This document shows, piece after piece, positions 38,189 to 62,039 of a stretch of 64,000 nucleotides of DNA; the stretch's first letter is position 1, and each line of letters starts with the position of its first letter. This DNA comes from Ensifer adhaerens. Lineage in GTDB: Bacteria; Pseudomonadota; Alphaproteobacteria; Rhizobiales; Rhizobiaceae. The DNA lies in NCBI RefSeq assembly GCF_002940685.1, contig NZ_PNFP01000014.1, positions 62,001-126,000 of the forward strand, read 5' to 3'. The notes under the pieces were generated by a model. That model was not told the origin of the DNA. It was given only the letters and a program-made list of their open reading frames with translations, and searched no databases. The position numbers were made by a program, and so were the translations under genes.

Positions 38189-38235
38189 TGCCTTCATCCG
38201 GCATATCGGTCGTGCGCTGTGCGGGTACCTCGCAA

Positions 38236-38265: not shown

Positions 38266-38342
38266 CCGGACGGGTGCATTGCCGCGCGCGCCCAGTCCGT
38301 GTCAGCGGATGGACAGCACCCCGTTCCGGAAAGGTTGGCCCT

Positions 38343-40049: not shown

Positions 40050-40060
40050 GAGGAACCAAC

Positions 40061-43000: not shown

Positions 43001-43132
43001 CGTACCATTGTACCGACTGAGGAGTTGCTGGTGGGCCTGGAGGAAACCGTTCGTGGCAAGACGGGTCGTTTGACCCGCTTTACTCAAGATGCGCGTGGAT
43101 GCGGATGTTTGATGAGGGACGAGGTCAATTGA
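40061..43132 (+). CDS. Two-partner secretion exoprotein (TpsA) with GLUG and MBG repeats
   Basis: A 1023-residue secreted protein. It starts at TTG 40061, 7 nt after AGGAGG. A signal peptide (to about residue 25) is followed by the TPS secretion domain, with NRVTG near residue 84 and NPNGI at residues 108-112, both hallmarks of filamentous-haemagglutinin-type substrates. GLUG-type repeats (GGLVG.N.G.I..SYATG) occupy about residues 575-690, and MBG-like beta domains about 745-905. A TVPTVPTVPTT linker (a 9-bp tandem repeat near 42775) leads to a C-terminal segment ending GCGCLMRDEVN. Probable adhesin or surface protein; no toxin domain is visible. Confidence 0.87.
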   Translation: MAIRYSSVTMTLLGSAAVAAPALAGDLPTGGTVVSGSASISTQGSTLSVHQTSDRLVTNWNSFSIGGANSVVFRQPSSSSVALNRVTGVEPSQIRGSLSANGQVFLVNPNGIVFGAGSQVNTAALVASTLDIANRDFLSGSYTFSGSGGSIANHGSLNGKVVALIAPEVTNAGTITGDTALAAGTKVGLDFGGDGLISVKVEESTLATLVDNRGVVKAPGGTVIFTAKGATAAKASVINNSGTVEAKGMVNKNGRILLLGDMASGTVKVSGTLDASAPEHGNGGFIETSARKVSISEKAKVTTRSAHGRSGHLLIDPTNYTIAASGGDMTGSMLTSLLASNGTVTIQSVSGASGTEGDIYVNDTVSWGNGSTLTLEAQNDIVVNGALNVSGTGGLVFNYGQATPALGNTSTYVVRGAVNLASTSSFQTKQGFNGSIINYSIINSAAQLQAIGDASNLSNVPGYYVLGSDIDLSSITNFAPIVNISGMFQPEGRDAFVGIFDGLGHTMSNLNINRPTLEGVGLFGFVGGDGVIRNFTISGGAVTGNYTVGAAAGMLSSGGFGASAAKIVNVGVRGVTVTSNNDGAGGLVGRNQGIIRGSYATGNVAANGASGFSASAGGLVGINQGVIANSYATGAVTAVTRAGGLVGDSMGGSVTNTYATGAVSAATTGGLIAESSGTTISASYFLNTAPDNGYGVAISSAQLTDPSTFSTWEIASSGGQKTIWRIYQGQTAPLLSAFLKPVTVTANSGTAIYSGGVPTLGVSYSSLSGTVDTSLLMGTPSIGGAGSNAGSYTLTPTGLYSGQGGYDISYVAGTLSITPAALTVTANGGSRNYSGIGYSGGNGVSYSGFVNGEGAAVLSGSLVYGGSAQGAVSPGVYTLSASGLSSSNYAITWVDGLLSILPATTVPTVPTVPTTTPSRLPLWPQPVPHSPLIADVGGLPVPVTFVGDLRRDPLFYPEGGRTLLVNTRRGSDGADIVTLPRTIVPTEELLVGLEETVRGKTGRLTRFTQDARGCGCLMRDEVN

Positions 43133-43138
43133 ACGTAT

Positions 43139-44089
43139 TCAGAGCCGCTTGAGCGCCAGGTAGCGAACACCGGTGGTGCTGCTGCCGGTCGCGTTCATCG
43201 ACCGTCCTTTTAAATCCCCCTGGCCACGTAGATGCGGCACGAGGCGCGTTTCCATGAACCTGTGCATTGCCGAGCCAGGAAGGGTCCAATGGGCGGCCAC
43301 GCTGTCGCCGCCCAGTTTTTCAACTTGGCGGAGACAGCTCTCTAACATCCCGGCAATGAGGTAGCCCCGGCGCTGAAATCGAGGCAACGTGTAGCCGAGT
43401 GGGTAATGAACCTGGGTCTCACTGCTCCTGCAACCGACAATCCAGCCCGCAATCTCCTTGTCGTGATACATGGCAAGGGAGAAGTCGGCGGATGTCTGAT
43501 CCGTATGAGCACCTGGCTGCCAGTCGGAGTGGACTCGACCAGTGGCGGATGTCTCGGCGATTGCTCGATGATCGGTTGTGGAAAGGTCTTGCCAAGATAC
43601 CGTGCGGAAACCACCCCGTTTTAGACGTTCAAGCAAAAAGGACCATTCGTCGAGGGCACCAAACGCGCACTTCACTTCGCACTTCAGCATGTATTCGCTG
43701 GCGCGCGGCGCCTCCCAGGCGCATGCAGCGAGGACGCTTTCGAATGCGTTGCGCGAAGTCATGTGGCCTGAATAGAGAGCAAACATCTCCTCAAGGCCGT
43801 CACGTCGCACCACTGTTTCGGCCAGCCTGAGCAGGGCGCGGCCAATGCCTGCGTTGCGCGACGATCGGTCCACCGCGAGTGAAAGCAGCCGCCGACTTGT
43901 CTTGCCGTTGTGCGCGTGGATGGTTCCCAATAGCGCGAGCCCAGCAGGCCTGCCGTCTACTCTCCGTGCCATGATCCCCAGCCAACCGGAGCCTCCGCAC
44001 GACCAGAAACTCCAGAACCTTGGGTAGGTAAGGGATCTGCAGCCGACTTCCGGCCGTTCCATCACCTCGAAGGTTAGCGGTTCCTTCAA
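43139..44089 (-). CDS. Tandem GNAT-domain protein, candidate RiPP acyltransferase (short form)
   Basis: A 316-residue protein with two GNAT-like halves. The first has the acyl-CoA-binding motif RNAGIGRALLRLAE (near residue 97) and LLSLAVDRSS before it; the second has PRFQRRGYLIAGMLES (near 245). It aligns with the last 330 residues of the GNAT protein at 44476-46254 (PLTYGRFW/SLTYPRFW; RFMETRLLP/RFMETRLVP). Its start overlaps the stop of the NHLP precursor gene by 4 bp, tying it to that peptide. GNAT enzymes in selidamide clusters fatty-acylate lysine or ornithine of the precursor. That role is inferred here. Confidence 0.75.
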   Translation of the reverse strand: MKEPLTFEVMERPEVGCRSLTYPRFWSFWSCGGSGWLGIMARRVDGRPAGLALLGTIHAHNGKTSRRLLSLAVDRSSRNAGIGRALLRLAETVVRRDGLEEMFALYSGHMTSRNAFESVLAACAWEAPRASEYMLKCEVKCAFGALDEWSFLLERLKRGGFRTVSWQDLSTTDHRAIAETSATGRVHSDWQPGAHTDQTSADFSLAMYHDKEIAGWIVGCRSSETQVHYPLGYTLPRFQRRGYLIAGMLESCLRQVEKLGGDSVAAHWTLPGSAMHRFMETRLVPHLRGQGDLKGRSMNATGSSTTGVRYLALKRL

Positions 44090-44391
44090 GTCCGCTGAAC
44101 CACACTTTTTTCCCGTGCGGAGGTCGAAGGATCCATCAATCCGCCGGTTACGACCTCGAGTTCCTCGTCGCTCAATTCTTCCGCTGGCTGCCAGTCAGCG
44201 GCAAGGCGCATTCGCCCGCCCGCCTCCTGCTGCCGAACATCGAGATCGGCTGGCAACGTCAACCCCAATGCCTGCTCAACCGCCAAGCGTGCGTCCTGAC
44301 GTGCCGCCTGCCGGAACTCTTCGTCGTAATCGACGAGATCCTGCAAGGCCGCTAGCGCGCGACGGACTTCCTCGGATGTGAAGGCGGGCAT
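44086..44391 (-). CDS. NHLP-type RiPP precursor peptide with GG leader
   Basis: A 101-residue precursor. The leader resembles the nitrile hydratase alpha-subunit N-terminus (DEEFRQAARQDARLAVEQAL, then LTLPADLDV), as in NHLP precursors, and ends ELSDEELEVVTGG, a double-glycine cleavage site for C39 peptidases. The predicted core is LMDPSTSAREKSVVQRT (17 residues). I chose the ATG at 44391 (MPAFTSEEV), which has an AGGA upstream. It is coupled to the GNAT gene that follows and lies 84 bp after the larger GNAT gene. Confidence 0.78.
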   Translation of the reverse strand: MPAFTSEEVRRALAALQDLVDYDEEFRQAARQDARLAVEQALGLTLPADLDVRQQEAGGRMRLAADWQPAEELSDEELEVVTGGLMDPSTSAREKSVVQRT

Positions 44392-44454
44392 GACAGCTGT
44401 CCTGGTTTTCAGTTGTACGTTATCGGCCCAGGCGGCGGAAATCCGTGCAACAAA

Positions 44455-44484
44455 GCTATGAGACAGCAGCAAAGACTATGAAAT
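44455..44484 (+). promoter_or_regulatory. Direct-repeat operator D (before the NHLP precursor)
   Basis: GCTATGA at 44455 and ACTATGAAAT at 44475, 20 bp apart, reading on the plus strand. It lies between the long GNAT gene, whose stop it overlaps, and the NHLP precursor start 64 bp away. Confidence 0.6.
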
Positions 44485-46254
44485 TGCCGTCAGACAGACG
44501 GATTGTGTACCGGCCTGGTGACGCGCGAGGTAGCGAATCTCAAGGTAGCCGCCGGGGCGTTCTGAACGGGTCGCGGCCAGCTGCGGCGGAGATGCGAAGT
44601 TTCCGTCCAGGAGCGGTAGCAACCGCGTCTCCATGAAGCGGGCCATGTCGGAACCGGCACTCGCCCAGTTTACGCAAACGCTGTGCTCACCCAGCAGTTC
44701 CGCCTGGCGACGACAGGCCTCAAACAGTCCGACGATGAGAAACCCGTGTTTGCGATAGGCGGGGAAGAGGCAGCCGCGTCGGTAGTGCACACACAGATCG
44801 CCGTCCCGCTCGCCAATGATCCAGCCGATGATTTTCCCGTGGTAGCGAAGGAGGAGCGAAAGGGCCTCGCCACCCTCCCTAAGGAAGAGGTCGGGATGCC
44901 ATTCCGCCGGAGCCTCACCCTGGTGGATGGTGGCATCGATTTCCATTCGGTCACTGCTGGTGATCTCAGTCCAGGGCTGCATGGAAAACCCTTGCCGAGC
45001 AGCGCGGGCCAAGAGCGGCTTCCATTGCTCTTCTGCTGCACGAACCCATTTGGCCTGGCCGACAATCGTGTATTCCATTGGCTCAGGAGTGCTCCATCCG
45101 GCTGCAGCCAGGGTGCGCTCGAAATGGGCACGCGAGGCCATGTGATGCGAGTAGGTCGTAAACAAGGCCGGCGTGCCGCTCGCCTGCGCAGCCTCGGATG
45201 CGGCCGTGAGAAGGCTGCGTCCAAGCCCGCGGCGACGATGGGCGTTGCTAACTGAAAGAGACAAGAGGCGTCGCCCCACGCTGCCCTCAACGGACAGGGG
45301 CTCCGATAGCAGTGCCAGTCCCACGATCTGGCCATCGCCGTCGCGCGCCGCAATGGCCAGCCAGTCCGGGCGCCGCATGGACCATTGAAACCAGAAGCGA
45401 CCGTAGGTCAGGGGCATGCAACCGGGCTCTGGAGCATCAAGGGTTTCGAGCGTGACACCGTCCGTGCCACGCCGCCGAAAACGAACCGGCGGCGGAAGGG
45501 TGGCGCCGCCCCAGGTCAGCAGGTCTCTCAGACGCTGATTGAGGCAAAAGCTGATGAGCGCGGCCGTGCCACCATCGACGACATTCTGATCCATGAGGAC
45601 TTCCACCAGCCGCCGCTCGCCCAGTCGCATCAGCGTGGCTTGCGGTCGGGCGTCTGTGCCTCTTGAGAGGGCGTCGGCTTTTCGTATGGCAGATTCGGGG
45701 GGGCACAGCGTCGCAAGGAGGGCCTGGACGCGGGATGTATAGAGGTCCGCCGCATTGAGTGCGCGCCAGTCGGAGAAATCCACGTCGGGGTCCGCGGGGG
45801 CAATGCGTGGCACCGGCAGATTGGGCCAGCGCGCGAACGGACGAGCACTGCCAGTGGTGACGATCTCCGTCGCAATGCCGTGACGCGCGAGGCGAGCGAT
45901 TTCATCCGGCAAGGTTGCATCGATCTCGGTGCCGTCCAGCCGCAGGGTAAGCATGAGCAATCCAGCCGTCGCGGCCGCGGCAAGTGTCCGGTCGTCTGGA
46001 AGGGGCCATGCGGCAGGCGCGAGGAGAAGGAGCAGGGGGCCACCGTCCGTTCGCTGCGCGGCCGTCAGACGGTGCCAGAGCGTGACGTCGTCCCAAAGAT
46101 CGTTGCCCTCGACGAGCGCCCAGGCATGTGTTTGGCGGATGCGGTCGATTTCCGTTTGCAACTGCGCATCCGTGACGTCGCAGACGTCTTTCAAGGTCAG
46201 CCACGGCATGCGCGCGACGGGGGACAGCAAGGAAGTGTCGACATCATTGAGCAT
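44476..46254 (-). CDS. Large tandem GNAT-domain protein, candidate RiPP maturase (long form)
   Basis: A 592-residue protein. About 255 N-terminal residues form a domain I do not recognise (LLSPVARMPWLTLKDVCDV, then TDGGPLLLLLAPAAWPLPDD). Two GNAT halves follow, with SNAHRRRGLGRSLLTAASEA in the first and FPAYRKHGFLIVGLFEACRR in the second. I prefer ATG 46254 over a TTG at 46287. No LanM, YcaO, radical-SAM or other standard RiPP enzyme is present in the island, so the two GNAT proteins are the best candidates for modifying the precursors, perhaps by attaching an acyl chain to lysine. It is divergent from three Nif11-type precursor genes. Confidence 0.75.
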   Translation of the reverse strand: MLNDVDTSLLSPVARMPWLTLKDVCDVTDAQLQTEIDRIRQTHAWALVEGNDLWDDVTLWHRLTAAQRTDGGPLLLLLAPAAWPLPDDRTLAAAATAGLLMLTLRLDGTEIDATLPDEIARLARHGIATEIVTTGSARPFARWPNLPVPRIAPADPDVDFSDWRALNAADLYTSRVQALLATLCPPESAIRKADALSRGTDARPQATLMRLGERRLVEVLMDQNVVDGGTAALISFCLNQRLRDLLTWGGATLPPPVRFRRRGTDGVTLETLDAPEPGCMPLTYGRFWFQWSMRRPDWLAIAARDGDGQIVGLALLSEPLSVEGSVGRRLLSLSVSNAHRRRGLGRSLLTAASEAAQASGTPALFTTYSHHMASRAHFERTLAAAGWSTPEPMEYTIVGQAKWVRAAEEQWKPLLARAARQGFSMQPWTEITSSDRMEIDATIHQGEAPAEWHPDLFLREGGEALSLLLRYHGKIIGWIIGERDGDLCVHYRRGCLFPAYRKHGFLIVGLFEACRRQAELLGEHSVCVNWASAGSDMARFMETRLLPLLDGNFASPPQLAATRSERPGGYLEIRYLARHQAGTQSVCLTAIS

Positions 46255-46325
46255 GACAACCACGCGAGTACGGAGGGCTTTCCGCAATCATAGGGGCGCC
46301 GCGACAGGCACGTCCTGCCGACCGA

Positions 46326-46355
46326 ACTATGAATGGTCGCGCACGACTATGAATG
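46326..46355 (+). promoter_or_regulatory. Direct-repeat operator B (GNAT/precursor divergent region)
   Basis: Two perfect copies of ACTATGAATG start at 46326 and 46346, exactly 20 bp apart. They read towards the precursor genes. This is the best-conserved of the six sites. Confidence 0.7.
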
Positions 46356-46373
46356 ATGCTCACCATGCTGCGA

Positions 46374-46403
46374 TTTCCATAGCCGCTGCCCGAATGCCAT
46401 AGC
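46374..46403 (-). promoter_or_regulatory. Direct-repeat operator C (GNAT/precursor divergent region)
   Basis: On the minus strand GCTATGG starts at 46403 and GCTATGGAAAT at 46383, 20 bp apart, reading towards the long GNAT gene. It closely resembles operator F at 62152 (both contain GCGCTATGGCA and GGCAGCGGCTATG). Together B and C give each divergent gene a site oriented towards it. Confidence 0.65.
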
Positions 46404-46488
46404 GCTCCGTTCTTTCCATGGTGCGGATCATCGCCAATGATCACGGCGATCGGCAACAAAGCCGAGCGATCTGAGAAAGGATCCAGAT

Positions 46489-46794
46489 ATGACGAATAGC
46501 GATAATGTTCGCTTCTATGCCGCAATCCGCGGCGACGCCGAGGCTTTGTCGCGGCTCCGGCAGGCGACGAGCGAAGCCGAGCTCATCGAACTCATCATGG
46601 ACGAAGCGCGCGCGCGTGGATTTGCGCTGACGGCGGATCTCGTTCGTGCTGGGCTTGCGGATCTCGGCACTCTCGTGAAGGAAGCGGCAAGCGGTGAAGA
46701 ACTGACGGAGCTTGAACTCGAGATCGTTTCCGGCGGCACCATGTTCTCAACCTTCCGCGAGCACAGAACGACCCAAACGCTAAGTTGCAAGTGA
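46489..46794 (+). CDS. Nif11-type RiPP precursor peptide 1
   Basis: A 101-residue precursor of the Nif11-like leader family. The leader of 83 residues contains VRFYAAIRGD, SEAELIELIMDEARARGF and ends ELTELELEIVSGG, a double-glycine site. The predicted core is TMFSTFREHRTTQTLSCK (18 residues), ending Cys-Lys like the cores of precursors 2 and 4. AAAGGA lies 7 nt before ATG 46489. It is first of three tandem precursor genes, divergent from the large GNAT gene, with operators B and C between them. Confidence 0.85.
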   Translation: MTNSDNVRFYAAIRGDAEALSRLRQATSEAELIELIMDEARARGFALTADLVRAGLADLGTLVKEAASGEELTELELEIVSGGTMFSTFREHRTTQTLSCK

Positions 46795-46941
46795 CCTGGC
46801 GGAGGAGGCGCTGAGACCGCGACCGCGTCTCCTCCGGCGATCGAACGTCCGAACATCCGCCTGCGAAGGTGCCGTGGCTTCGGGGCCAGTCGGGCACGTG
46901 TGACCGATACTGCTCCAAGGTGGCAGCAGAAAGGAACGACA

Positions 46942-47256
46942 ATGATTGAACCACAGTCCGTCAGATTTTATGCCGCAATCCGCAAGGAACCGGCGGTGCT
47001 CGCCCGTCTTGGCCAGGCAGCGAGCGAAACCGAACTCATTGAACGGATCCTCGATGAGGCAAAGGCGCTCGGCTTCGATCCGACGGTCGAGCTCGTCAAG
47101 AATGGGCTCGATAATTTGCCGATGATTATCGAGGAGACGTCGAAAGGAGATGAACTCAGCGAAGTGGAATTGGAAATCGTCTCCGGCGGGGTCTCCTTCA
47201 GCTCCTTTGTTCTCTTCGACGAGGGCGGCCGGCGCTCGGGCACCGGCTGCAAGTAA
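46942..47256 (+). CDS. Nif11-type RiPP precursor peptide 2
   Basis: A 104-residue precursor. The leader (VRFYAAIRKE, SETELIERILDEAKALGF) ends ELSEVELEIVSGG. The 21-residue predicted core begins VSFSSFVLF and ends RRSGTGCK, again with a terminal Cys-Lys. I chose ATG 46942, with AAAGGA 6 nt upstream. The leader is strongly conserved with precursors 1, 3 and 4, while the core is completely different, as expected for a shared export and maturation system acting on variable products. Confidence 0.85.
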   Translation: MIEPQSVRFYAAIRKEPAVLARLGQAASETELIERILDEAKALGFDPTVELVKNGLDNLPMIIEETSKGDELSEVELEIVSGGVSFSSFVLFDEGGRRSGTGCK

Positions 47257-47311
47257 GAGACCTCACTGGCTGCTGCGCAAGCTTAAGCCTCCACTCGCAA
47301 GGAATGTGCAA

Positions 47312-47629
47312 ATGACCGATACACAGACCGTTCAATTCTATTCTGCGATCCGCAAGGATCGCGAAACACTCGATCGCCTGGCGAAGGCGGCAAGCGAGTC
47401 CGAACTCATCGAACTGATTATGGATGAAGCCAAAAAGCGTGGTTTTGCTCCCTCAAAGGAACTTGTGAGGGCCGGTCTTTCCGACCTCGGCGCCATCGTT
47501 CAACAGGTCGCTGGTGGCGACGAACTTACGGAAATGGAACTGGAGATTGTCTCCGGGGGCTACGACCAGGTTCGTGGCCCGACGGATTCATGTGGTCGCC
47601 CCTATGTGTCGACTCCGAAGCGAGGCTGA
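47312..47629 (+). CDS. Nif11-type RiPP precursor peptide 3
   Basis: A 105-residue precursor. The leader (VQFYSAIRKD, SESELIELIMDEAKKRGF) ends ELTEMELEIVSGG. The 22-residue predicted core begins YDQVRGPTDSCGR and ends STPKRG. Unlike precursors 1, 2 and 4 it has an internal cysteine and a Lys-Arg-Gly end, so it may be modified differently. AAGGAA precedes ATG 47312. It is the last of the tandem; about 200 bp without a gene separate it from the convergent cNMP-binding gene. Confidence 0.85.
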   Translation: MTDTQTVQFYSAIRKDRETLDRLAKAASESELIELIMDEAKKRGFAPSKELVRAGLSDLGAIVQQVAGGDELTEMELEIVSGGYDQVRGPTDSCGRPYVSTPKRG

Positions 47630-47836
47630 CCTACTACTCCTGCTTCTCTGACGTCTAGTCGGTGCCAGTTTTGCACGGATTGTTTGTACCGAAGCCGCGG
47701 ACCTGTTTACCAAGTCCGCGGCGCTCGTCGTTTGTGACGGGCCACGCGGAGCTCGTTTCGACCGGATCTCGCGGTCGGTTTCGGCAGGTCGACATAAGGT
47801 CCGAAGCGACCTCGGACCGACGGATGTGCAGGACGA

Positions 47837-48367
47837 TCAGGCCTTCAACATTTCCATCATGCGGTTGAACCGTTCTCCAGCCAGAGACAGGCCGTCGAGC
47901 ACAGCGTCGTCCAGCTCGTCGGCTGTTTCCTCGGCAATACTGACCGCCTTGTCGCCGTAGCCGAGCCGTTTGACTGTGCCCCGCAGGCGATCGGAAAGGA
48001 AGGTGGCGAGCGCACGATAAAAGCGCATCCCGAAGGCCGGGTCCCGATCGATATGGGCTTCGATTGCAGCCTTGGCGACGGAGAGAACCTGCGCGGGTCC
48101 GCGTGCAACGACCGAAGCTGAAGGCGCAGCTCTGTCGATGAAGCTCATCTCGCCAACGACTTCGCCGGGCAGCAACCGCGCCACTTGGCCAATGCCGCGG
48201 ACCTCCACATCCAGTTCACCGGCAAGCAGGACAAAAAGGGCGGGCACAGCTTCGCCCTCGGCAATCAGCACATGGTCGGCCGACAGCGAGCGCTTCTCGC
48301 CCGACCGGGCCAGCCATTCCACATCCTCATCGGTGAGTTGGCCAAGAATATAAAGTACCTTTCGCAT
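47837..48367 (-). CDS. Cyclic-nucleotide-binding domain protein without DNA-binding domain
   Basis: A 176-residue protein. The cNMP-binding fold covers about residues 12-130 (HVLIAEGEAVPALFVLLAGE, then LLPGEVVGEMSFIDRAAPSA with the phosphate-binding GEMSF..R.APSA motif). The helical tail has no helix-turn-helix, so it is not a CRP-type transcription factor. It begins 10 bp after the second ABC transporter gene and ends the export operon. A CHASE2 adenylate cyclase is encoded nearby, so cAMP gating of peptide export or maturation is a reasonable inference. Confidence 0.82.
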   Translation of the reverse strand: MRKVLYILGQLTDEDVEWLARSGEKRSLSADHVLIAEGEAVPALFVLLAGELDVEVRGIGQVARLLPGEVVGEMSFIDRAAPSASVVARGPAQVLSVAKAAIEAHIDRDPAFGMRFYRALATFLSDRLRGTVKRLGYGDKAVSIAEETADELDDAVLDGLSLAGERFNRMMEMLKA

Positions 48368-48377
48368 GCTGCTGTCC

Positions 48378-50462
48378 TCAAAGCTGTTGTCGCTGCGCAA
48401 GGCGAGCGAAGGCGCCATCCTTGCGCATGAGATCGTCATAGGCACCATCCTCAACCAGCCGACCGCGCTCCATGACGAGAATTCGATCCGCTCGCCTGAT
48501 GGTGGAGAGGCGGTGTGCCACCATGATCCGCGTTGCGGAAAGGCTGGCCAGTGTCTCCATCACCAAGGCCTGAGTAACGTTGTCGAGAGCGCTCGAAGCC
48601 TCGTCGAGCAACAGCACGGCAGGCTTGTTGACCAGCGCCCGGGCGATCAAGAGCCGCTGGCGCTGTCCTCCGGAAAGGCTTGCCCCGCCGGCCTGCATTA
48701 CGGTGTGATAGCCCATCGGCATCGCGTCGATGTCGCGATCAAGACCCGCCATCGCCGCGGCGCGGCGGGCTTCATCAATTCCACGCCCGCTGGCGCCGAC
48801 GATGTTGGACAGGATGGTTCCGGAAAGGACCTGACCGTGCTGCAGCACAACGCCGATCTGTCGGCGCACAGTCTCCGCGCGCAAGGTTGCAAGTGGCTGA
48901 TTGTCGTAAAGAATGTCGCCGCCTTCGGGCACGTCGAATGCCATCAGCAATCTCAACAGGGTCGACTTTCCGCTGCCGGAAGCCCCGACAACTGCGACGA
49001 AGCTCCCGGGCCGGATGTCGAGACTCAAGCGATCGAGCACAAGCGGCGTCTGTGGCGTGTAACGGAAAGACACCGCGTTAAGGCTGATGGTGCCCTCGAG
49101 CTTGCCGACGTCGCGCGCCGAGCTGGTGGCTTCGGGTTGGGCCTCGAGAATGGGCTTGGCGCGTGCGAGGTGAGGCAAAGCGGAAAGCAGTTGGGTCGCT
49201 GAAAGCGCGGTGGAGGTCAAAGCCTCCATGAATTGGCCAAAGGCCGTCGAAAAGGCAATCAAGGTGCCGGCGCTCATCGCCTTTGCGGCACCTCCCTCGG
49301 CAAGCGATTGCTTCAGGAAGTAGGCCGCAAGGCTGTAGACGATGAGATTTGCGAGGAGCGGGTAGCTATTGGAGAACACTTCCGTGAGGTTACCCCAGGC
49401 AAGCTCCTTGTGCCGTAAACGCAGGAGCTTTGCATAGTGCGAAAGCCAGACGCTGAAAGCCCGCTCTTCGGCCTGTCCTGCCCGAAGTTTTGCCATTCCG
49501 CAAAGCATTTGCAGTGTCAGGCCGCTAACGCCGTTCTCCACCACCGCTTCGCCAGCCTTGATCTGCCGGCGGGCAATCGCTGTCAAGGTCAGCGCGCCGA
49601 ACGCGGCGAGCAGAACTGCAACGGCGGCAAGTCTTGCGTCATAAAAAAACAAGAGCATGAGGCTCGGTATTCCGGTCGCTGCTCCCATGAGCACCTGAAA
49701 CACCGAGGTCGAAGCAATCGCGCGAGCCCGTTGTATGCTGAGAGCTCTCGTCGTCAGGTCACCGATGGTGAAACTCTTGAAAAACCGTGGCGAAAGCCGC
49801 AACAGTCGGTCGAACAGAGCCGTCTGCGCACGAGGATCGAGCCGCCCTTCTACCTTCAAGGCCGCCCATCCCTGAAGCGCGGCGAACGCGGCGCTGCCGA
49901 GAGCGGCGGCAAGCAGCAGGAAGCCGATCTGTGCGATCGATGAGACATCCGCCTGGGGAATGGCGTTATTGAACATCTGTTGCGTGACGATCGGCAGCAG
50001 CAAAGCAAGCAACGCGCCCGCCGTCGCAAGTGCTGCAATGTGAAGCCCGTCGGCTTTGCTGCCTGAGGTTGCAAACTGCACAAGCGCACGCCATTCCCGG
50101 GCGCCGTCCGGAAGGGGGGCGTGCAGCAGGTAGGCCTCGCCCTCCAGTTCTTCGGCGAGAGCCATCGTGACCGGATACGAACCTTCCGTCGTGACCATGC
50201 GGTATCCGGAAAAGCTCCCGGGAACAAGGGCCACCTCCTGCTTGCGCAAGTGCGCCAGCATGACGCCTTGTGAACTTGTCTGCCAGCCTTGGCGCAACTG
50301 AACGGTGCGAAGGCGGATCCCAGCGCAGGCGAGGATCTCCGAGGCACTGCCGCGTGCCCGGGGTGGCATCGCGACGCCGATGGAGGCGAGGAGCGCTCCG
50401 GCCACTCCCTGCGGCGGCGCAGGACCATCGATGACGGCGGCGGCGAGATTGGCGATCGACAT
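48378..50462 (-). CDS. NHLM-type ABC transporter, second subunit (no active C39 peptidase)
   Basis: A 694-residue protein of the NHLM bacteriocin-export type 2. The N-terminal 130 residues form a domain specific to this group, with no catalytic Cys. Six membrane helices follow (about 145-420), then an ATPase with Walker A VGASGSGKST, signature SLSGGQRQR, Walker B LLLDEASSALD and H-loop MVAHRLST. It starts 2 bp after the peptidase-ABC gene, and the two probably act as a pair to export GG-leader peptides. Confidence 0.87.
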   Translation of the reverse strand: MSIANLAAAVIDGPAPPQGVAGALLASIGVAMPPRARGSASEILACAGIRLRTVQLRQGWQTSSQGVMLAHLRKQEVALVPGSFSGYRMVTTEGSYPVTMALAEELEGEAYLLHAPLPDGAREWRALVQFATSGSKADGLHIAALATAGALLALLLPIVTQQMFNNAIPQADVSSIAQIGFLLLAAALGSAAFAALQGWAALKVEGRLDPRAQTALFDRLLRLSPRFFKSFTIGDLTTRALSIQRARAIASTSVFQVLMGAATGIPSLMLLFFYDARLAAVAVLLAAFGALTLTAIARRQIKAGEAVVENGVSGLTLQMLCGMAKLRAGQAEERAFSVWLSHYAKLLRLRHKELAWGNLTEVFSNSYPLLANLIVYSLAAYFLKQSLAEGGAAKAMSAGTLIAFSTAFGQFMEALTSTALSATQLLSALPHLARAKPILEAQPEATSSARDVGKLEGTISLNAVSFRYTPQTPLVLDRLSLDIRPGSFVAVVGASGSGKSTLLRLLMAFDVPEGGDILYDNQPLATLRAETVRRQIGVVLQHGQVLSGTILSNIVGASGRGIDEARRAAAMAGLDRDIDAMPMGYHTVMQAGGASLSGGQRQRLLIARALVNKPAVLLLDEASSALDNVTQALVMETLASLSATRIMVAHRLSTIRRADRILVMERGRLVEDGAYDDLMRKDGAFARLAQRQQL

Positions 50463-50464
50463 GA

Positions 50465-52648
50465 TTACTGGCTCCGAACCAGGTCCGCATAAGCACCTGC
50501 AAGCGCCATGAGCCGGTCATGACTTCCCCGCTCTATGACACGCCCACGCTCCAGAACCAGGATCTCCTCGCAGTCTCGGATTGTGGAAAGTCGATGAGCG
50601 ATGACGAGGCAGGCGCAGCCGCGTCGTCTAAGATTGGCGTCGACGATTTCTTCCGTAAGAGCGTCGAGCGCTGAGGTGGCTTCGTCGAGAACGAGGAGGC
50701 GGCTGTTGCGGGTGAGCGCGCGGGCGATCTCCAGCCGTTGTCGCTGGCCACCTGAGAAGTTCATTCCACCCTCGAGGACGCGCGCCTCAAGCCCGCCACG
50801 TGCCATGACCTCCGCGAGCAGTTCGGCGTCGCTCAACGCTTCCATCAAGACATCGTCGGAGAGCGTGTCATCCCAAAGCGTAAGATTGTCACGCACTGTT
50901 CCATCAAACAGAAAAATGTCCTGATCGACATAGGCCATGAGCCCAACCTTTGTTGCTGCGTCGAGGGTTGCCAGCGGATGACCGTCAACGCAGATCTTGC
51001 CTGTCCACGGGGCCGTAAGGCCGGCTGCCAAACGCCCGACGGTGCTCTTGCCGGAGCCGGACCCTCCCACCAAGGCGACGCGTGTTCCGGGATGGAGGTC
51101 GAGCGAGAAATTGTCCAATATCGGTGCCGACAAGGGAGCGTAGCCGAAGGAGATGTTTTCGATCGTCAGCCGCCCCTGCGGCGCTGCGGTCAATCTGACG
51201 GGTGAGGACGGTTCGGGAAGGGGATAGCGGAAGGCGTCCTCGAGCTTGGAAAGATCGGCCTTGGCGGCTTGCACCTGCGTGGACAGCTGCGTCAAGCGTG
51301 CGATCGGCGTGGCGAAGCTTCCAAGCAATGTCTGGAACGCGACGAGGTCGCCTGCGGTCATCGCGCCTTCCATGACCCGAAACGCGCCCAACATCAAAAC
51401 GAGCGCGGTGGTGAGACCCGAGAGAAGTTTCGGGATGACCTGGATGAGTTGCGACGCGGCCATCTGCCTCTGGACGGTCTTGAGCGCATTGGCTTGGTAG
51501 CCGGACCAGGTAGCAAATGCGTCGTTCTCCTCGCCGTTTGCCTTGAGCGTCTCGATCGCCGAAAGCGTGCCTACCGTTGCCCCTTGCAACTTTCCAGCCG
51601 CGGAGGCGACAGCGGCGCTATCCTCTTCGGCGCGCGTGGTGTTGAACCAGATGGCAACACCGTTTGCGGCCGAGAGCCAGATTGCCAATCCCGCCAGAAC
51701 GGGATCGTAGAGCAGCATGGCCGCGCTGAAGAAGATGACTGAGATCAGATTGAAAGCGCTTGTGGCAAGATCACCTGAAAGGAGCCGTGCCATGCGCTCC
51801 CCTGCCTCGACCCGGTTCATCAGGTCACCTGGCTGACGCTGCAGGAAGAATGCAAGCGGGAGATGGAGCAAACGTTCGAAGTAGCGGGACGATGCTATGG
51901 CCGCGAGCTTGGCTTCCAGCCGCGCGAGGTAAAACTGCTGCACAAAGGTGAGCCCGCCGCGGATAAGAGCCGTCAGTCCCATGGCAAGGAGCAATGGGGC
52001 AAGCCAGCTTTGTGCCTGCCTGCCGAAGATGTCGTCGACAAGAACCTTGGAGAAGGCAGGAATGACGAGACCCGGGATCGCCAGCAGAAGGCTTGCAAGA
52101 AGCACCATTGACAGTCCGTCTCGAGCACCAGCGAGGCGTGCGCTCAGCATGGGTAGGAGCTTCGACGGAGCGCCTTTCCGCACGAAGTCGGGACCCGGCT
52201 CGAAGGCAAGCAACACACCGGTGAAAGCCGCGTCCACTTCCTCACGCGAAAGAACGCGCCGCCCTTGAGCCGGATCGTTGATGACATACTTGCCGCGCTT
52301 TATGCCTTCGAACACAACGAAATGATTGAAGTTCCAATGGAAGATGGCCGGTGTTCGGATCTCTGGCAGCTGGCCAACTTCCTTGCGGAAGCCTTTGGCG
52401 GTGAAGCCGTGGCGGCGCGCGGCCTTGAGAATGTTACCCGCATTGGTGCCGTCGCGAGCGACCCCGCATTCTTCCCGCAACAGTTCCAGTGGTACCCAGC
52501 ATCCGTGGTGTGCCAGCACCATCGCAAGCGAGGCGGCGCCACACTCGACAGCCTCCATCTGCAGGATAGTCGGTGTCCTCGCGGTCAGTCCGGTGTTGGC
52601 GCGCTTCCCGTTGACCAGCCATCGCCTCATGGCTCCACGCTCATCCAT
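50465..52648 (-). CDS. Peptidase-containing ABC transporter (C39, NHLM type 1)
   Basis: A 727-residue transporter that cleaves leaders after Gly-Gly and exports the core. The N-terminal C39 peptidase domain (about residues 20-155) has the catalytic Cys in VECGAASLAMVLAHHG, the His in FNHFVVFEG and the Asp in VINDPAQG. Six membrane helices and an ATPase follow (Walker A VGGSGSGKST, signature NFSGGQRQR, Walker B LVLDEATSALD). All key residues are present. It overlaps the HlyD gene by 22 bp. Five precursors with GG sites in this window are its likely substrates. Confidence 0.92.
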   Translation of the reverse strand: MDERGAMRRWLVNGKRANTGLTARTPTILQMEAVECGAASLAMVLAHHGCWVPLELLREECGVARDGTNAGNILKAARRHGFTAKGFRKEVGQLPEIRTPAIFHWNFNHFVVFEGIKRGKYVINDPAQGRRVLSREEVDAAFTGVLLAFEPGPDFVRKGAPSKLLPMLSARLAGARDGLSMVLLASLLLAIPGLVIPAFSKVLVDDIFGRQAQSWLAPLLLAMGLTALIRGGLTFVQQFYLARLEAKLAAIASSRYFERLLHLPLAFFLQRQPGDLMNRVEAGERMARLLSGDLATSAFNLISVIFFSAAMLLYDPVLAGLAIWLSAANGVAIWFNTTRAEEDSAAVASAAGKLQGATVGTLSAIETLKANGEENDAFATWSGYQANALKTVQRQMAASQLIQVIPKLLSGLTTALVLMLGAFRVMEGAMTAGDLVAFQTLLGSFATPIARLTQLSTQVQAAKADLSKLEDAFRYPLPEPSSPVRLTAAPQGRLTIENISFGYAPLSAPILDNFSLDLHPGTRVALVGGSGSGKSTVGRLAAGLTAPWTGKICVDGHPLATLDAATKVGLMAYVDQDIFLFDGTVRDNLTLWDDTLSDDVLMEALSDAELLAEVMARGGLEARVLEGGMNFSGGQRQRLEIARALTRNSRLLVLDEATSALDALTEEIVDANLRRRGCACLVIAHRLSTIRDCEEILVLERGRVIERGSHDRLMALAGAYADLVRSQ

Positions 52649-53880
52649 TTACGCAGTGCGGGGAGCACCAGATCGACCGGACGACGACGCTCGTAAGTGA
52701 TCTCGGATGCGACGGTGGTGCCTGAGGTAATGGTGAGGGGCGGCGTCTTGCCCGAGGTCCATAGCCATCGACCGTCCTCGCCAACCTGAAGGTTCAGTCG
52801 GGCTATGTAAGGTTGGCTCCCAGCCGCCAATTGCTGGACCAGCGCCTGATTGGACAGCCAGGCTTCCAATCCGTTCGCCGCGACCGGATAGTCGGAGCGC
52901 TCCAGGACCTCGCCACGGATGCTGCCCCATTCTTCCTTGCGCACGGCATCGGGCGTGATGCGAGCTTTCATTCCCGCAACCACCTTCTTGCCGTCGGCAG
53001 TCGGCAGGAAGACGAGGGCTTCCAGCCCGCCCCCGTTCGTCTCGATCGAAACGATTTGCGCTCCGGCCGCGACGACGGATCCCGCCGCTTGCTTGACCGC
53101 CACCACGCGCCCTGCAACGGGTGCAGTCACAAGATTTTCCTGCTGCATTCGCGCCTCGGTCAGGGCCCTGCGCCGGATCGCATCGTTGTAGGCAGCCTCA
53201 AGCTCCTTCAAGGCGGTTTCGCGAGAAAGCCGGAGTTCGGCGAGTTCGCTATCAAGCTTGGAAAGCGCGAGTTCGACGTCGCTCACCTGCTTTTGAGCGT
53301 TGGCGAGGGACACGCGCTGATCCTGAAGGCCGCGAGCCGACACGACGCCTTGGGTTTGAAGCTTCTCGATACCGGGCATCGACTTCGCCAGCCACTCTGC
53401 GTGCTGACGGGAGGCATCCAGGTTGGTACGAAGAGCCTCTTCCTGTTCGGTCTTGATGGCCTCGCGGCTACGCATTTCGGCCAGGAACAAGGCTTGCCGC
53501 CGGGCGAGCTCCCCCCGCTTCTCCTCGATCTCCTGATCCAGGTTCAGCAACTGGCGTTCGCTGCCAGCCTGTTCAATTCGGGCGACCACCTGTCCCTTGG
53601 AGACGATTTGACCTTGAGCCGCCACTATCTCCGTGAGGACGCCGGATGCCAGCGTCATCGCTTCCTGTACGCGTCCCTCACGCACGACCAGAATTCCCTT
53701 GCCCGAGATATTGGACGGCAAGGAGCCGAAGATGCCCCACAACAAGGCGCATAGAATGAGGAAGCCCAAGACGGTGATGCCGGCCCATCCTCTGGCATTC
53801 ACCAGTGGGAGCGCCGTGTCCAACTGTTCAGGGGAGGAAAGGCGGTCAAGGGCCGCCTGACGAAAGATCTGTCGGGACAT
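52627..53880 (-). CDS. HlyD-family adaptor of the NHLM peptide exporter
   Basis: A 417-residue periplasmic adaptor with one N-terminal membrane helix (about residues 33-52). A lipoyl-type segment (VREGRVQEAMTLASGVLTEI) is split by a long coiled coil (about 105-240, EEKRGELARRQALFLAEMRS and onward), and a beta-barrel part follows. It connects the inner-membrane ABC subunits to the periplasm. A TolC-type outer-membrane channel is not encoded here and would be shared. It overlaps the peptidase-ABC gene and starts 6 bp after the FecR gene. Confidence 0.9.
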   Translation of the reverse strand: MSRQIFRQAALDRLSSPEQLDTALPLVNARGWAGITVLGFLILCALLWGIFGSLPSNISGKGILVVREGRVQEAMTLASGVLTEIVAAQGQIVSKGQVVARIEQAGSERQLLNLDQEIEEKRGELARRQALFLAEMRSREAIKTEQEEALRTNLDASRQHAEWLAKSMPGIEKLQTQGVVSARGLQDQRVSLANAQKQVSDVELALSKLDSELAELRLSRETALKELEAAYNDAIRRRALTEARMQQENLVTAPVAGRVVAVKQAAGSVVAAGAQIVSIETNGGGLEALVFLPTADGKKVVAGMKARITPDAVRKEEWGSIRGEVLERSDYPVAANGLEAWLSNQALVQQLAAGSQPYIARLNLQVGEDGRWLWTSGKTPPLTITSGTTVASEITYERRRPVDLVLPALRKWMSVEP

Positions 53881-53886
53881 GAAGGT

Positions 53887-54549
53887 TTATCTCGCAGGCA
53901 ACTTGCTGCGATCGATCGGTATCTCCGCCAATTGATCGGTCTTCTTCGGTCCGCGATCGAACTGGCAGAGAAGATCATCGATCTCGATGGGGGAGAGGGG
54001 TCGAGCCGTACGGGGGGCGTGGCCCGGCTCAGCGTCGATAGCCGTACCTTTTTTACGCGTCGAACGCGTGACCCCATTACGGCGCAGCGTCAACTCTTCG
54101 CCATAGAGGAAGGCGGCCGAGACCGATTGATCGGGCTGAACCGTCAGAAAGGCAATGCCGCCGCGAATTCCCATCGTCGCGGTGCCCGCCGAAATGGTAA
54201 CCGGCTGCTCCTTGGAGAGTTTGCCACCGACAAAACGAAACACGCCTTTGGTAACCGACAGCGCAATTTTACCGGTGCCTCGGTCGGGATCGTAGACGAA
54301 GGTGTCGAGCACGACGTCGCTACCGGGACCGATCGAGAAGGCGCTTCCGTCGGCGAAAAGCAACTGCGCGCGCCCCTCCGCTCCGGTCACGATCCGCTCA
54401 TTGGCACGCACGGCGGCGTCCACACGGATGATCCGTTCGCCTTCACCGATCACTGTTGGTTGAACGGCAGCCGCAGTGCCGATGTCACGCGCCACAACTG
54501 GCTGGGTGAGCCACAGCAGCAACGATACGCAGACATAGTGCCGCTTCAT
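53887..54549 (-). CDS. FecR-domain periplasmic protein
   Basis: A 220-residue protein with a signal peptide (residues 1-21) and a FecR beta domain (ANERIVTGAEGRAQLLFADG, SAFSIGPGSDVVLDTFVYD, then GTATMGIRGGIAFLTV). Unlike iron-regulatory FecR it has no N-terminal cytoplasmic segment, so it is a stand-alone periplasmic FecR-fold protein. Such proteins accompany surface-export systems and CHASE2 cyclases. It overlaps the small TPR gene by 4 bp and precedes hlyD by 6 bp. Confidence 0.82.
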   Translation of the reverse strand: MKRHYVCVSLLLWLTQPVVARDIGTAAAVQPTVIGEGERIIRVDAAVRANERIVTGAEGRAQLLFADGSAFSIGPGSDVVLDTFVYDPDRGTGKIALSVTKGVFRFVGGKLSKEQPVTISAGTATMGIRGGIAFLTVQPDQSVSAAFLYGEELTLRRNGVTRSTRKKGTAIDAEPGHAPRTARPLSPIEIDDLLCQFDRGPKKTDQLAEIPIDRSKLPAR

Positions 54550-54860
54550 GGCTTCGACCGATCGATGATGCGCAGCCGATCGAGGGCAACACGCTTGAGC
54601 GAGGCGGGAGCCGCATCGTTCCGGGCGACTGTCGCGTAGTAGACCCGAGCGGCCTTCTCTGAACGAATGCTCTCGTAGAGCTGTCCGAGTTTCAATTGCG
54701 CGCCTGCGTCGCCCGGCGCAGCGATCAGGCGCCGTTCCAGGACGGCAATTGCACCTTCCGGATCCTGGCGCGCTTCAAAACGCCGAGCGGCAGAGAGTGC
54801 CTCTTCGGCGACGGCGGGGGTAGCCACTAGCAGGGCCAAGAACAGGCTGCGCAAACGCAT
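54546..54860 (-). CDS. Small exported TPR-like protein
   Basis: A 104-residue protein with a signal peptide (MRLRSLFLALLVATPAVAEE) and roughly two tetratricopeptide-like helical pairs (ALSAARRFEARQDPEGAIAV, then GDAGAQLKLGQLYESIRSEK). It is the first gene of the export operon and is coupled to the FecR gene by a 4-bp overlap. Possibly a scaffold for FecR or the adaptor; function unknown. Confidence 0.72.
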   Translation of the reverse strand: MRLRSLFLALLVATPAVAEEALSAARRFEARQDPEGAIAVLERRLIAAPGDAGAQLKLGQLYESIRSEKAARVYYATVARNDAAPASLKRVALDRLRIIDRSKP

Positions 54861-54930
54861 GAGGTTCCGTCACATGGGTTGATTGCCAAGCAACTTAAGC
54901 GACGGGCGTTACCCGGCTCAACGCGTGAAA

Positions 54931-54960
54931 ACTATGCGCGAGCCTCAAGAACTATGGATT
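54931..54960 (+). promoter_or_regulatory. Direct-repeat operator E (export operon/cyclase divergent region)
   Basis: ACTATGCGC at 54931 and ACTATGGATT at 54951, 20 bp apart. It lies in the 150-bp gap between the first gene of the export operon (minus) and the CHASE2 cyclase gene (plus), so one site could serve both. Confidence 0.62.
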
Positions 54961-55010
54961 TCGGATCGATCACATTGGCAGTGCCTGTAGCTGTCCTCAC
55001 AGTCAGTTCC

Positions 55011-57113
55011 ATGTACTCGCGCCTGAAAATTCTGCTGGCTCCTGCCTGTCTGCTCACCCTCATTCTCGTCTGGAGGGCCTTCGACCCCGGTGAACTGCTC
55101 GTTCGGGCGAGGGTGATGGTTTTTGATGCCTACACAAGGCTGCAGCCGCGCAGCTTCGAAGCCGCACCTGTCCGCATCGTCGACATTGATGACGAAAGTC
55201 TTCGGCGTGTCGGCCAATGGCCCTGGCCCCGCCGAGTGCTCGCCGAAATCACCGACCGGCTCGATGAAATGGGGGCGGCGGCCATCGGCTTCGACAGTCT
55301 GTTTGCCGAGGAAGATCGCACGGCCCCGAAGTTCCTGGCGCAAGCCTATCCCGACATCAAAGCGCTCGCCGGGCTGCCTGATCCCGACGACCGTTTTGCC
55401 GATGCGATCGCGCGCGCCGGCAACGTCGTGATGGGTTACGGATTGTCGATGGATGCCAATCAGGCGACACCAGCCATGAAGGCCGGCTTTGCGTTTTCGG
55501 GTCCTGATCCCGCCGCCTTCCTACCCAAATTTGAACGTGCAATCGTCAATCTGCCTAAGCTGGACGAAGCAGCGGCAGGATCAGGTGCGTTTGACTTCTA
55601 TCCTTCCGACGGGTTGATCGTGCGTGCTGTGCCGATGGTGTATGCCTTGCGCGGTAAGCTCTACCCCAGCCTGGCTGCCGAACTGCTTCGGGTGGCACAA
55701 GGCGCCAGTTCTTACACGCTGAAGGCGCAAGACGGCGCGCTCACGGATATGCGCATCGGCGAGCTTACCGTGCCATTGACTGCGCGCGGCGAGTTGCGCA
55801 TGCACTTCTCCCGTCCCGAGGGCGTGCGCTACCTTTCGGCCTGGAAACTGCTCGCCGAAAGCGCGCCACCGGAACTGATTGCCGGACATATCGTGCTCAT
55901 CGGCACCTCGGCAACCGGCCTCAACGATATCCGTGCTTCCAGTCTTGATCCGACGATGCCCGGCGTCGAAGCTCATGCCCAGGCAATCGAGCAGATATTG
56001 CTGCAGTCCTTCCTGCAGCGGCCGGATTGGGCGGAGGGGGCAGAGTGGTTGGTGACGCTGCTGCTCGGACTTCTGCTGATGGCATTGCTGTTTTATGCAA
56101 ACGCTTTCTGGGGTGCGATCGCAGGGTTGGCGGCAATCCTTGTCGCCGGTGGAGCCTCCTGGCACCTCTACGTCGCCGAGCGACTGCTGCTCGATCCCGT
56201 GACGCCGGGTCTGGCGGGCCTTTTCGTCTATCTGGCGGGGTCGCTGGCCTCTTATCTGAAGGTTGAGGGCGAACGCCGGCATGTCACGGCCGCCTTCGGC
56301 CAGTACCTTTCTCCCGCACTGGTCAAGAAGCTCGCCGCTGATCCGAGGCAATTGGCCCTTGGAGGCGAGACACGGGAGCTTACGCTGATGTTCTGTGACG
56401 TGCGGGGCTTTACCGCTATCTCCGAGCACTTCCGCGGAAACCCTCAAGAGCTGACCAGCCTCATCAACCGCTTTCTGACGCCGATGAGCGACGTGATCCT
56501 CGCCGCTGGCGGTACCATCGACAAGTACATGGGCGATTGTATCATGGCCTTCTGGAATGCTCCTCTCGACGATCCTCAACACGCCGTTCACGCGTGCGCG
56601 GCTGCGCGTGGAATGATGGCCGAACTTGAGGTCCTGAACGCGCAGCTGCCAGTCAAGCTCGGGATCGGCATTGGCCTCAATACCGGCACCTGCGTGGTCG
56701 GCAACATGGGCTCCGAACGGCGTTTTGACTATTCTGCGCTTGGCGACGCGGTCAATCTCGCATCACGCCTTGAGGGGCAATCGAAGACCTACGGTGTGAC
56801 GGTGGTGTTGAGCGAGGAGACACTTCGCCGGACCGGGCTTGCCGGCGTGGAACTCGACCTGATCGCGGTCAAGGGCAAAGAGGAGGCCGTACGAATCTTC
56901 ACCTTGGGAGAGCCTCCGGAGGAGCATGACGCCATGCTCGCAGCCTACCGCGCCCGGGCGTGGAAGGAAGCCCAGGCGCTTCTGAAACGCTTGAGCGCCA
57001 CCTATCCGGAATTCTCGACGCTCTACGCGCTCTACGCTGAGCGCGTTGCCGATCTGAGACTTCAGCCGCCGCCTGAGGATTGGGATGGCGTGTTTCGAGC
57101 GACCTCAAAGTGA
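55011..57113 (+). CDS. CHASE2-domain adenylate cyclase
   Basis: A 700-residue membrane cyclase. After an N-terminal helix, the extracytoplasmic CHASE2 sensor covers about residues 30-340 (VRIVDIDDESLRRVGQWPWP is its signature). Three membrane helices lie about 350-425, and a class III cyclase domain about 450-630. Metal aspartates (LMFCDVRGFTAISE, KYMGDCIMAFWNAP), the ATP-type Lys before YMGD and the Asn/Arg pair in LGDAVNLASRLE are all intact. In-frame starts at 54879 and 54954 would run through operator E, so 55011 is preferred. It probably makes cAMP for the cNMP-binding proteins of the island. Confidence 0.9.
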   Translation: MYSRLKILLAPACLLTLILVWRAFDPGELLVRARVMVFDAYTRLQPRSFEAAPVRIVDIDDESLRRVGQWPWPRRVLAEITDRLDEMGAAAIGFDSLFAEEDRTAPKFLAQAYPDIKALAGLPDPDDRFADAIARAGNVVMGYGLSMDANQATPAMKAGFAFSGPDPAAFLPKFERAIVNLPKLDEAAAGSGAFDFYPSDGLIVRAVPMVYALRGKLYPSLAAELLRVAQGASSYTLKAQDGALTDMRIGELTVPLTARGELRMHFSRPEGVRYLSAWKLLAESAPPELIAGHIVLIGTSATGLNDIRASSLDPTMPGVEAHAQAIEQILLQSFLQRPDWAEGAEWLVTLLLGLLLMALLFYANAFWGAIAGLAAILVAGGASWHLYVAERLLLDPVTPGLAGLFVYLAGSLASYLKVEGERRHVTAAFGQYLSPALVKKLAADPRQLALGGETRELTLMFCDVRGFTAISEHFRGNPQELTSLINRFLTPMSDVILAAGGTIDKYMGDCIMAFWNAPLDDPQHAVHACAAARGMMAELEVLNAQLPVKLGIGIGLNTGTCVVGNMGSERRFDYSALGDAVNLASRLEGQSKTYGVTVVLSEETLRRTGLAGVELDLIAVKGKEEAVRIFTLGEPPEEHDAMLAAYRARAWKEAQALLKRLSATYPEFSTLYALYAERVADLRLQPPPEDWDGVFRATSK

Positions 57114-61546: not shown

Positions 61547-61730
61547 TATTCGACTTGCCAAATTGAGAGGATCGACGGGCGAAGTGTGTCTTGCGAAAGG
61601 CAGGTGCCCATGGTGACCCACGCCTTGCCGCGATCAGCGCGCACCCGACTGCGAAGATCACACCCATCGCCACGGTTTGCGGTGGCGCAGTGCGATCTTC
61701 AGCTGTGGGCTGAATGCCGGCGCGCTTAGC

Positions 61731-62039
61731 TTACTTGCACGGAGCGTTCTCCTTTTTGGCGCGTTCCCATTGTTCCCAGGCCGATTCGATACCGCCCGAG
61801 ACGAGTTCCAGCTCGAAGTCCTGAAGTTCTTCGCCTCCAGCGGCTTTGCCGATGAGGCTGCCGAGATCGGCAAGACCGGCCTTGACCTGTGAGGCATCCA
61901 ACATGATGTTCCGGGCCCCAGCCTCATCCAGGATCAACTCGATCAGTTGGGCTTCGTTTGACGCAGTTGCGAGACGGCCAAGTGCCTCTGCGTCCTTGCG
62001 AAGAGTGGAATAAAATTCGATTGCTTGGATATCGCTCAT
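61731..62039 (-). CDS. Nif11-type RiPP precursor peptide 4
   Basis: A 102-residue precursor about 14 kb from the other three. The leader (IEFYSTLRKD, NEAQLIELILDEAGARNI) ends ELQDFELELVSGG. The predicted core is IESAWEQWERAKKENAPCK (19 residues), ending Cys-Lys like precursors 1 and 2. GAGGAAAG lies about 6 nt before the start. It has its own copy of the direct-repeat operator upstream (62152), linking it to the rest of the island although it has no maturation gene beside it. Confidence 0.85.
   Translation of the reverse strand: MSDIQAIEFYSTLRKDAEALGRLATASNEAQLIELILDEAGARNIMLDASQVKAGLADLGSLIGKAAGGEELQDFELELVSGGIESAWEQWERAKKENAPCK

Follow-up and report, generated by a model that had tools for sequence, protein, structure and literature searches.

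Tandem GNAT proteins paired with double-glycine precursors at an NHLM exporter in Ensifer: a conserved locus with a predicted role in peptide acylation and export

Introduction

This report concerns a 64,000-nt stretch of Ensifer adhaerens contig NZ_PNFP01000014.1 (the window, whose positions are used below unless a locus number is given) and, within it, a gene island at 43139..54860 that brings together two GNAT proteins, small precursor peptides with double-glycine (GG) leaders and an NHLM exporter. The locus is real and conserved, and its predicted role is peptide acylation and export; lipidation we infer. Related gene sets in other rhizobia suggest that secreted acylated peptides form a family yet to be characterised. 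With moderate confidence, we read its products as exported peptides acylated on lysine, a variant of the selidamides. This reading is supported by the completeness of the NHLM exporter, the co-occurrence of such GNATs with NHLM HlyD genes, the pairing of a precursor with all 15 closely related GNATs, an acyl-CoA loop in their N-terminal halves, an excess of Lys in the core peptides and purifying selection across the unit. It is also supported by the recurrence of one core motif, xxFSxF, on two unrelated leaders and by a genome without any LanC-like domain. By definition, a selidamide is fatty-acylated on Lys or (hydroxy)ornithine by a GNAT (PMC9505594), and Lys1 of the precursor NpuA is acylated by NpuN, a tandem GNAT (PMC13060382).

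The exporter, the GNAT genes and the precursors

An earlier note, made from the letters of the window alone, had listed the genes of the island, and its list held: every gene is there, and both GNATs match PF00583. The NHLM exporter is complete by NCBIfam, with all three components on the minus strand: ABC1, a C39 peptidase/permease/ATPase with predicted roles in GG-leader cleavage and export (50465..52648; TIGR03796, 930.5 bits, cut-off 853.3), the permease/ATPase ABC2 (48378..50462; TIGR03797, 717.7, cut-off 709.4) and the HlyD adaptor (52627..53880; TIGR03794, 239.5, cut-off 156.2). ABC1 is the sole TIGR03796 match above cut-off in the genome.

The genome holds two GNATs of this kind, both inside the island and both on the minus strand. 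GNAT-short (43139..44089; 316 aa; PF00583, 40.4 bits) has a start that overlaps the stop of the NHLP-type precursor (44086..44391, minus strand; 101 aa), whose predicted core, LMDPSTSAREKSVVQRT, follows TGG. GNAT-long (44476..46254; PF00583, 42.7 bits) matches the family at positions 297-391 of a 603-aa frame; with the ATG start chosen here it has about 592 aa and consists of an N-terminal domain of about 250 residues, of unknown fold, followed by a tandem GNAT. Three Nif11-type precursors lie on the plus strand: N1 (46489..46794; core TMFSTFREHRTTQTLSCK), N2 (46942..47256; core VSFSSFVLFDEGGRRSGTGCK) and N3 (47312..47629; core YDQVRGPTDSCGRPYVSTPKRG). A fourth, N4 (61731..62039, minus strand; core IESAWEQWERAKKENAPCK), came from a scan for open reading frames (ORFs) with GG leaders and has no match in NCBIfam or Pfam. 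N1-N4 and their four counterparts in Ensifer sp. PDNC004 all have leaders of 83 residues, which align without a gap. A profile of these leaders matches an alignment of eight Nif11-type precursors from other loci (hhalign probability 96.6%, E 4.7e-10); seven of those eight references were scanned, and five of the seven exceed the TIGR03798 cut-off. By profile, then, the leaders of N1-N4 appear related to those of accepted Nif11 precursors. Among 16 genomes of the genus, the leader profile has four matches in the window genome, four in Ensifer sp. PDNC004 (G389), one in the sister species G399 and none in the other 13.

Conservation within Ensifer and loss in a sister species

In Ensifer sp. PDNC004 the whole unit is found in the same gene order on an 834-kb plasmid, and, of the 16 genomes of the genus, the two with GNAT-long are also the two with NHLM HlyD. 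The 16 gene pairs compared between the window and this strain have dN/dS values of 0.05-0.23, indicating purifying selection, although these values are rough, as synonymous sites are near saturation (pS 0.47-0.68). The NHLP-type precursor is 84% identical to its orthologue (dN/dS 0.06), the whole N4 gene has a dN/dS of 0.23, and the cores of N1, N3 and N4 have values of 0.10-0.11. Thus, the enzymes, the leaders and three of the four Nif11-type cores are under purifying selection.

G399 shows how the island can be lost. At L083 8138-11502, tpsB and the initial part of tpsA run straight into the first part of sulP, with window 38082-40329 abutting window 61304-61639 at L083 9256/9257 and two bases (GA) shared. 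About 21 kb is gone, including the GNATs, N1-N3 and the exporter, and N4 is kept as an orphan precursor. This arrangement shows that the tps genes, the island, sulP and N4 lay together in a single stretch in an ancestor.

Tandem GNAT architecture and the N-terminal domain

Pfam detects only the first GNAT domain in these proteins. The earlier description of them as tandem is nevertheless supported by a structural model of GNAT-short, in which the GNAT order of strands and helices appears twice (pLDDT about 80 in the N-terminal half, below 50 in much of the C-terminal half) and which Foldseek aligns along its full length with tandem GNATs of solved structure (2wpw, E 9.2e-5). A P-loop for acyl-CoA is found in the N-terminal half of 14 of the 15 closest GNATs (clade II, below) and in the C-terminal half of none; both window proteins have it in the N-terminal half only (RNAGIG in GNAT-short). 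The selidamide GNAT NpuN, compared here by description, is likewise tandem with its acyl-CoA loop in the N-terminal half (PMC13060382).

The orthologue of GNAT-long in PDNC004 is 70% identical overall, with 56% identity and a dN/dS of 0.33 in the N-terminal domain against 79% and 0.12 in the GNAT part. This domain (45490..46254, minus strand) had been described as about 255 residues without obvious relatives, which stands for everything searched beyond PDNC004; that strain does have it. No relative was found in Pfam or NCBIfam, among PDB sequences (best E 1.2), or, PDNC004 apart, in 72,556 plasmid records (E up to 10), in genomes of the class (385), of relatives (151) and of the order (397), or among the 6352 ORFs read from 70 loci (lowest other E 0.09). 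AlphaFold2 gave GNAT-long a mean pLDDT of 44 from an alignment of two sequences. The idea, raised by eye, that it is a decayed radical SAM domain was rejected, as pairwise shuffles and hhalign comparisons with four radical SAM proteins lent it no support (best probability 0.9%). Found in two genomes so far, the fused domain may be a new module for leader reading or substrate selection, and may define the new enzyme subtype suggested earlier.

Relatives of the GNATs and their precursor partners

When 385 genomes of the class were searched with a GNAT profile (E up to 1e-15), five matched. Full-length matches lie in the window's own genome, G379, G354 and G206, and a match of 119 positions in G376; the profile included G379 and G354, which had been found earlier with the window protein alone. 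NHLM HlyD exceeds its cut-off in 18 of the same genomes, and all four with a full-length GNAT are among the 18 (chance 3.4e-6; 3/3 without the window's own genome, 7.3e-5). The 397 genomes of the order gave seven GNAT matches, namely the window's own, four in one genus and two in another, none of which covers the N-terminal domain. Peptide-pattern scans for the closest relatives in viral contigs and genome contigs found none.

A tree of 22 GNATs has two clades (support 100/99). Clade I contains the cyanobacterial proteins of Microcoleus, Nostoc and Gloeothece, the latter two fused to TIGR03032, together with GNATs from radical SAM loci (Mesorhizobium, G354, G206); Lys is the first core residue in all six of its loci in which a precursor could be read, a feature shared with NpuA. 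Clade II comprises 15 GNATs from nine alphaproteobacterial genomes: the window genome, PDNC004, Shinella, Azospirillum, G379, G691, G799, G767 and G585. The long and short GNATs of the window and of PDNC004 are paralogues whose split predates the parting of these two genomes. The earlier note had counted a lack of GNAT-precursor pairing in related genomes as grounds for abandoning its proposal; a GG-leader ORF adjoins 15/15 clade II GNATs, often overlapping or within 0.3 kb. An NHLM HlyD gene lies near the GNAT in the window, PDNC004, Shinella, G379 and one G691 locus. Shinella has one GNAT by an NHLP precursor and another by a Nif11 precursor, as does G691, which suggests one GNAT per leader type; GNAT-short would therefore be expected to serve the NHLP-type precursor in the window.

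Several plasmid loci of clade I have features of their own. On conjugative plasmids of Nostoc (L070 7516-9627) and Gloeothece (L071 7615-9609), the GNAT is fused behind its TIGR03032 domain and adjoins cadherin-like or Ig-like proteins of very large size. In Microcoleus vaginatus, the GNAT of a 22-kb plasmid (L038 9775-10681) is split over two frames and stands beside a precursor with Lys1, a radical SAM gene and a C39-ABC. Plasmids of Mesorhizobium and Aminobacter (L072, L073, L084, L085) carry a Nif11 precursor, a radical SAM epimerase, a GNAT and a radical SAM C-methyltransferase; their cores start with KHH, and some copies are broken up by insertion sequence elements.

Lysine, cysteine and the xxFSxF motif in the core peptides

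Lys is found in 28 of the 32 cores read from clade II, where 10.5 would be expected at the frequency of Lys in eight window proteins (2.18%); the 32 cores are not independent, four having been collected through an FSxF pattern, and the G399 N4 copy among them is no longer beside a GNAT. It stands at core position 1 in none of the five window cores and in none of the 32. Cys occurs in 15/32. The locus of G379 (L033 8303-9620 and 15994-16437) has four tiny cores of 10-12 residues beside its clade II GNAT. By eye, K[DE]xxKG can be read in cores of Azospirillum, G767 and Shinella (L037 10775-11083, L109 9223-9642, L036 14992-15270), which a loose pattern scan did not list.

In N1 and N2 of the window and of PDNC004, the xxFSxF motif comes behind a Nif11-type leader; in Shinella, G691, G787, G728 and G799 it comes behind one of NHLP type. 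The Shinella NHLP core scores 52 against the PDNC004 N2 core, a value reached by 0 of 5000 shuffles (mean 15.4). Since the motif occurs on both kinds of leader and this score lies beyond the shuffles, one core type has changed leaders, providing a natural leader-swap experiment on the role of the leader versus that of the core. Four orphan NHLP precursors, one from Rhizobium SSA_523 and three from Tistrella, with no GNAT in the stretch seen, include none with an xxFSxF core and one with Lys in the core.

Cyclic-nucleotide genes and the extent of the locus

The island proposed earlier is real, but it was drawn too small: N4 and the five genes described next had been overlooked as parts of the unit. 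The locus is thus larger than in the earlier account. On the minus strand lie a free, single-domain protein that binds cyclic nucleotide monophosphates (cNMP; 47837..48367; PF00027, 49.4 bits; TIGR03896, 154.4 of 161.05 bits), a FecR-domain protein (53887..54549; PF04773, 36.9 bits), a small TPR protein (54546..54860; PF13428, 25 bits) and, just downstream of N4, a SulP transporter with STAS and C-terminal cNMP domains (59342..61621; PF00916, PF01740, PF00027). A CHASE2 adenylate/guanylate cyclase gene (54879..57113, plus strand; PF05226, PF00211) is divergent from the minus-strand run of exporter, FecR and TPR genes.

The free cNMP protein accompanies the clade II exporters of the window, PDNC004, Shinella, G379 and G691 and is absent from the Azospirillum stretch. 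Homologues of the cyclase, FecR and SulP proteins stand beside the exporters of Shinella and G691, which belong to two other genera. Neither the free cNMP protein nor these homologues occur at the other 20 NHLM loci examined in the class; that set includes two clade I GNAT loci, and some of its members are truncated at contig ends. A cyclase match (E about 1e-32) lies by the GNATs of L109 and L111. Judging from adjacency alone, cAMP or cGMP may control expression or export.

On its other side, the island is bordered by a two-partner secretion pair (window 38106-43132; a ShlB-type protein and a TPS-domain exoprotein with MBG repeats), which is kept in PDNC004. No promoter-like sites were found at 46200-48500, and terminator-like sites showed no excess over shuffled sequence.

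What the locus may make

If the products are Lys-acylated, they would be short linear peptides of 17-22 residues. The Nif11-type and NHLP-type leaders would bring the precursors to the tandem GNATs, which would use acyl-CoA bound in the N-terminal half to acylate a core Lys side chain. Acylation, Lys as its acceptor, a long acyl chain, cleavage and export are all predicted on the precedents of NpuN and PhaN. The C39 domain of ABC1 would cut after Gly-Gly, ABC1, ABC2 and HlyD would export the product, and a cyclic-nucleotide circuit of the CHASE2 cyclase, the free cNMP protein and FecR may govern expression or export.

A number of observations weigh against this reading. The earlier note had proposed TIGR03793 and TIGR03798 as a check on the precursors, and none reaches the curated cut-offs: the NHLP-type precursor scores 33.3 bits against 50.9 for TIGR03793, and N1, N2 and N3 score 15.7, 19.4 and 13.3 against 32.3 for TIGR03798 (N1 also scores 20.8 of 23.8 bits for Pfam Nif11). 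The G376 partial match (E 3.9e-16) lies in a genome without NHLM; Azospirillum, L109 and L111 have a C39-ABC/ABC pair only; and L107, L108 and L110 have a GNAT and a precursor with neither NHLM HlyD nor such a pair within 19 kb. The N2 core has diverged (dN/dS 0.50). The four Lys-free clade II cores, all from G379, have one Cys each, and across the eight Nif11-type precursors of the window and PDNC004 the one core residue that never varies is a Cys, not a Lys. Finally, the likeness of these proteins to characterised selidamide GNATs is one of description (NpuN), not of sequence.

The cysteines raise the possibility that the acceptor is the conserved core Cys, if only in G379 and in the Nif11-type precursors of the window. 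That single Cys is present in 8/8 precursors and is kept in the G399 copy of N4 despite a different last residue, and the cores of G379, with their Cys and no Lys, bear directly on the use of another acceptor by such GNATs. On the other hand, Cys is missing from 17 of the 32 clade II cores, the window's NHLP-type core among them, NpuN acylates Lys1 (PMC13060382), and a free Cys might instead dimerise the peptide or bind a metal; S-acylation therefore seems to us quite improbable. It is also unlikely, though less so, that the peptides are exported essentially unmodified, like class II bacteriocins, while the GNATs acetylate some other target, such as one in immunity or regulation. GNATs form a very large superfamily, Pfam and NCBIfam show no enzyme that would cyclise the short, linear cores, and the leader end resembles that of unmodified double-glycine bacteriocins (PMC2887384); yet the placing of a precursor beside each clade II GNAT, the one GNAT per leader type in Shinella and G691 and the enrichment of Lys in the cores all speak against it.

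The GNATs might also add one step only, the main modification being made by an enzyme encoded elsewhere in the genome. In Shinella, a radical SAM gene separates the two GNAT-precursor pairs, and the window genome has 14 radical SAM matches, none of them on this contig, while YcaO proteins and arginases lay outside the genome-wide search. But the genome has no LanC-like domain (PF05147), and hence none of the LanM by which class II lanthipeptides are recognised, and no other RiPP (ribosomally synthesised and post-translationally modified peptide) enzyme was recognised at the window, PDNC004, Azospirillum or G379 loci. The earlier statement that the island has no usual RiPP enzyme accordingly agrees with the Pfam and NCBIfam searches of the locus, and we regard such a remote enzyme as highly improbable.

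A bolder form of the acylation reading, which we offer tentatively and consider doubtful, is that these loci make a separate class of exported peptides with acylation as the sole modification. The GNATs of the clade would act on xxFSxF and related cores at a Lys near the C-terminus, or at the conserved Cys, behind either of two interchangeable leaders, with release switched by cyclic nucleotides; the products might be secreted signals or surface-active peptides of rhizobia. If this is true, GNAT acylation alone can define a class of peptide natural products, and rhizobia would secrete acylated peptides of a family from which none has yet been isolated.

Comparison with known systems

Among the literature matches listed, in a search that left subscription journals mostly outside, no rhizobial, cyclic-nucleotide-linked or GNAT-only precedent was recognised. 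A link to the Os17-type peptides of Rhizobium and Pseudomonas was considered and dropped. The exporter resembles the NHLM exporters of Haft et al. 2010 in having TIGR03794, TIGR03796 and TIGR03797 proteins all above cut-off (PMC2887384), and differs in the genes around it, which encode the CHASE2 cyclase, FecR and the free cNMP protein.

As a kind, GNAT clusters that lack LanM are not new. The Mesorhizobium and Aminobacter plasmid clusters share with the window a tandem GNAT and a Nif11 precursor, and an NHLM exporter is annotated in two of the four, but they differ in their radical SAM epimerase and C-methyltransferase, their Lys-first cores and a GNAT that belongs to clade I. With phaeornamide, kamptornamide and the nostolysamides, the window has in common an NHLP or Nif11 precursor, a GNAT, GG cleavage (predicted here) and export by a peptidase-ABC (PMC9505594, PMC13060382). 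The selidamides described in these sources also have LanM, and phaeornamide an arginase and a hydroxylase as well, whereas the window genome lacks the LanC-like domain; nostolysamide is acylated on Lys1, whereas none of the five window cores starts with Lys; and the window has two GNATs, one with an extra domain. The selidamide-like character proposed earlier is thus partly supported, by the GNAT-precursor pairing and by the NpuN-like tandem build and P-loop, but the window GNATs belong to a clade separate from the Lys-first one.

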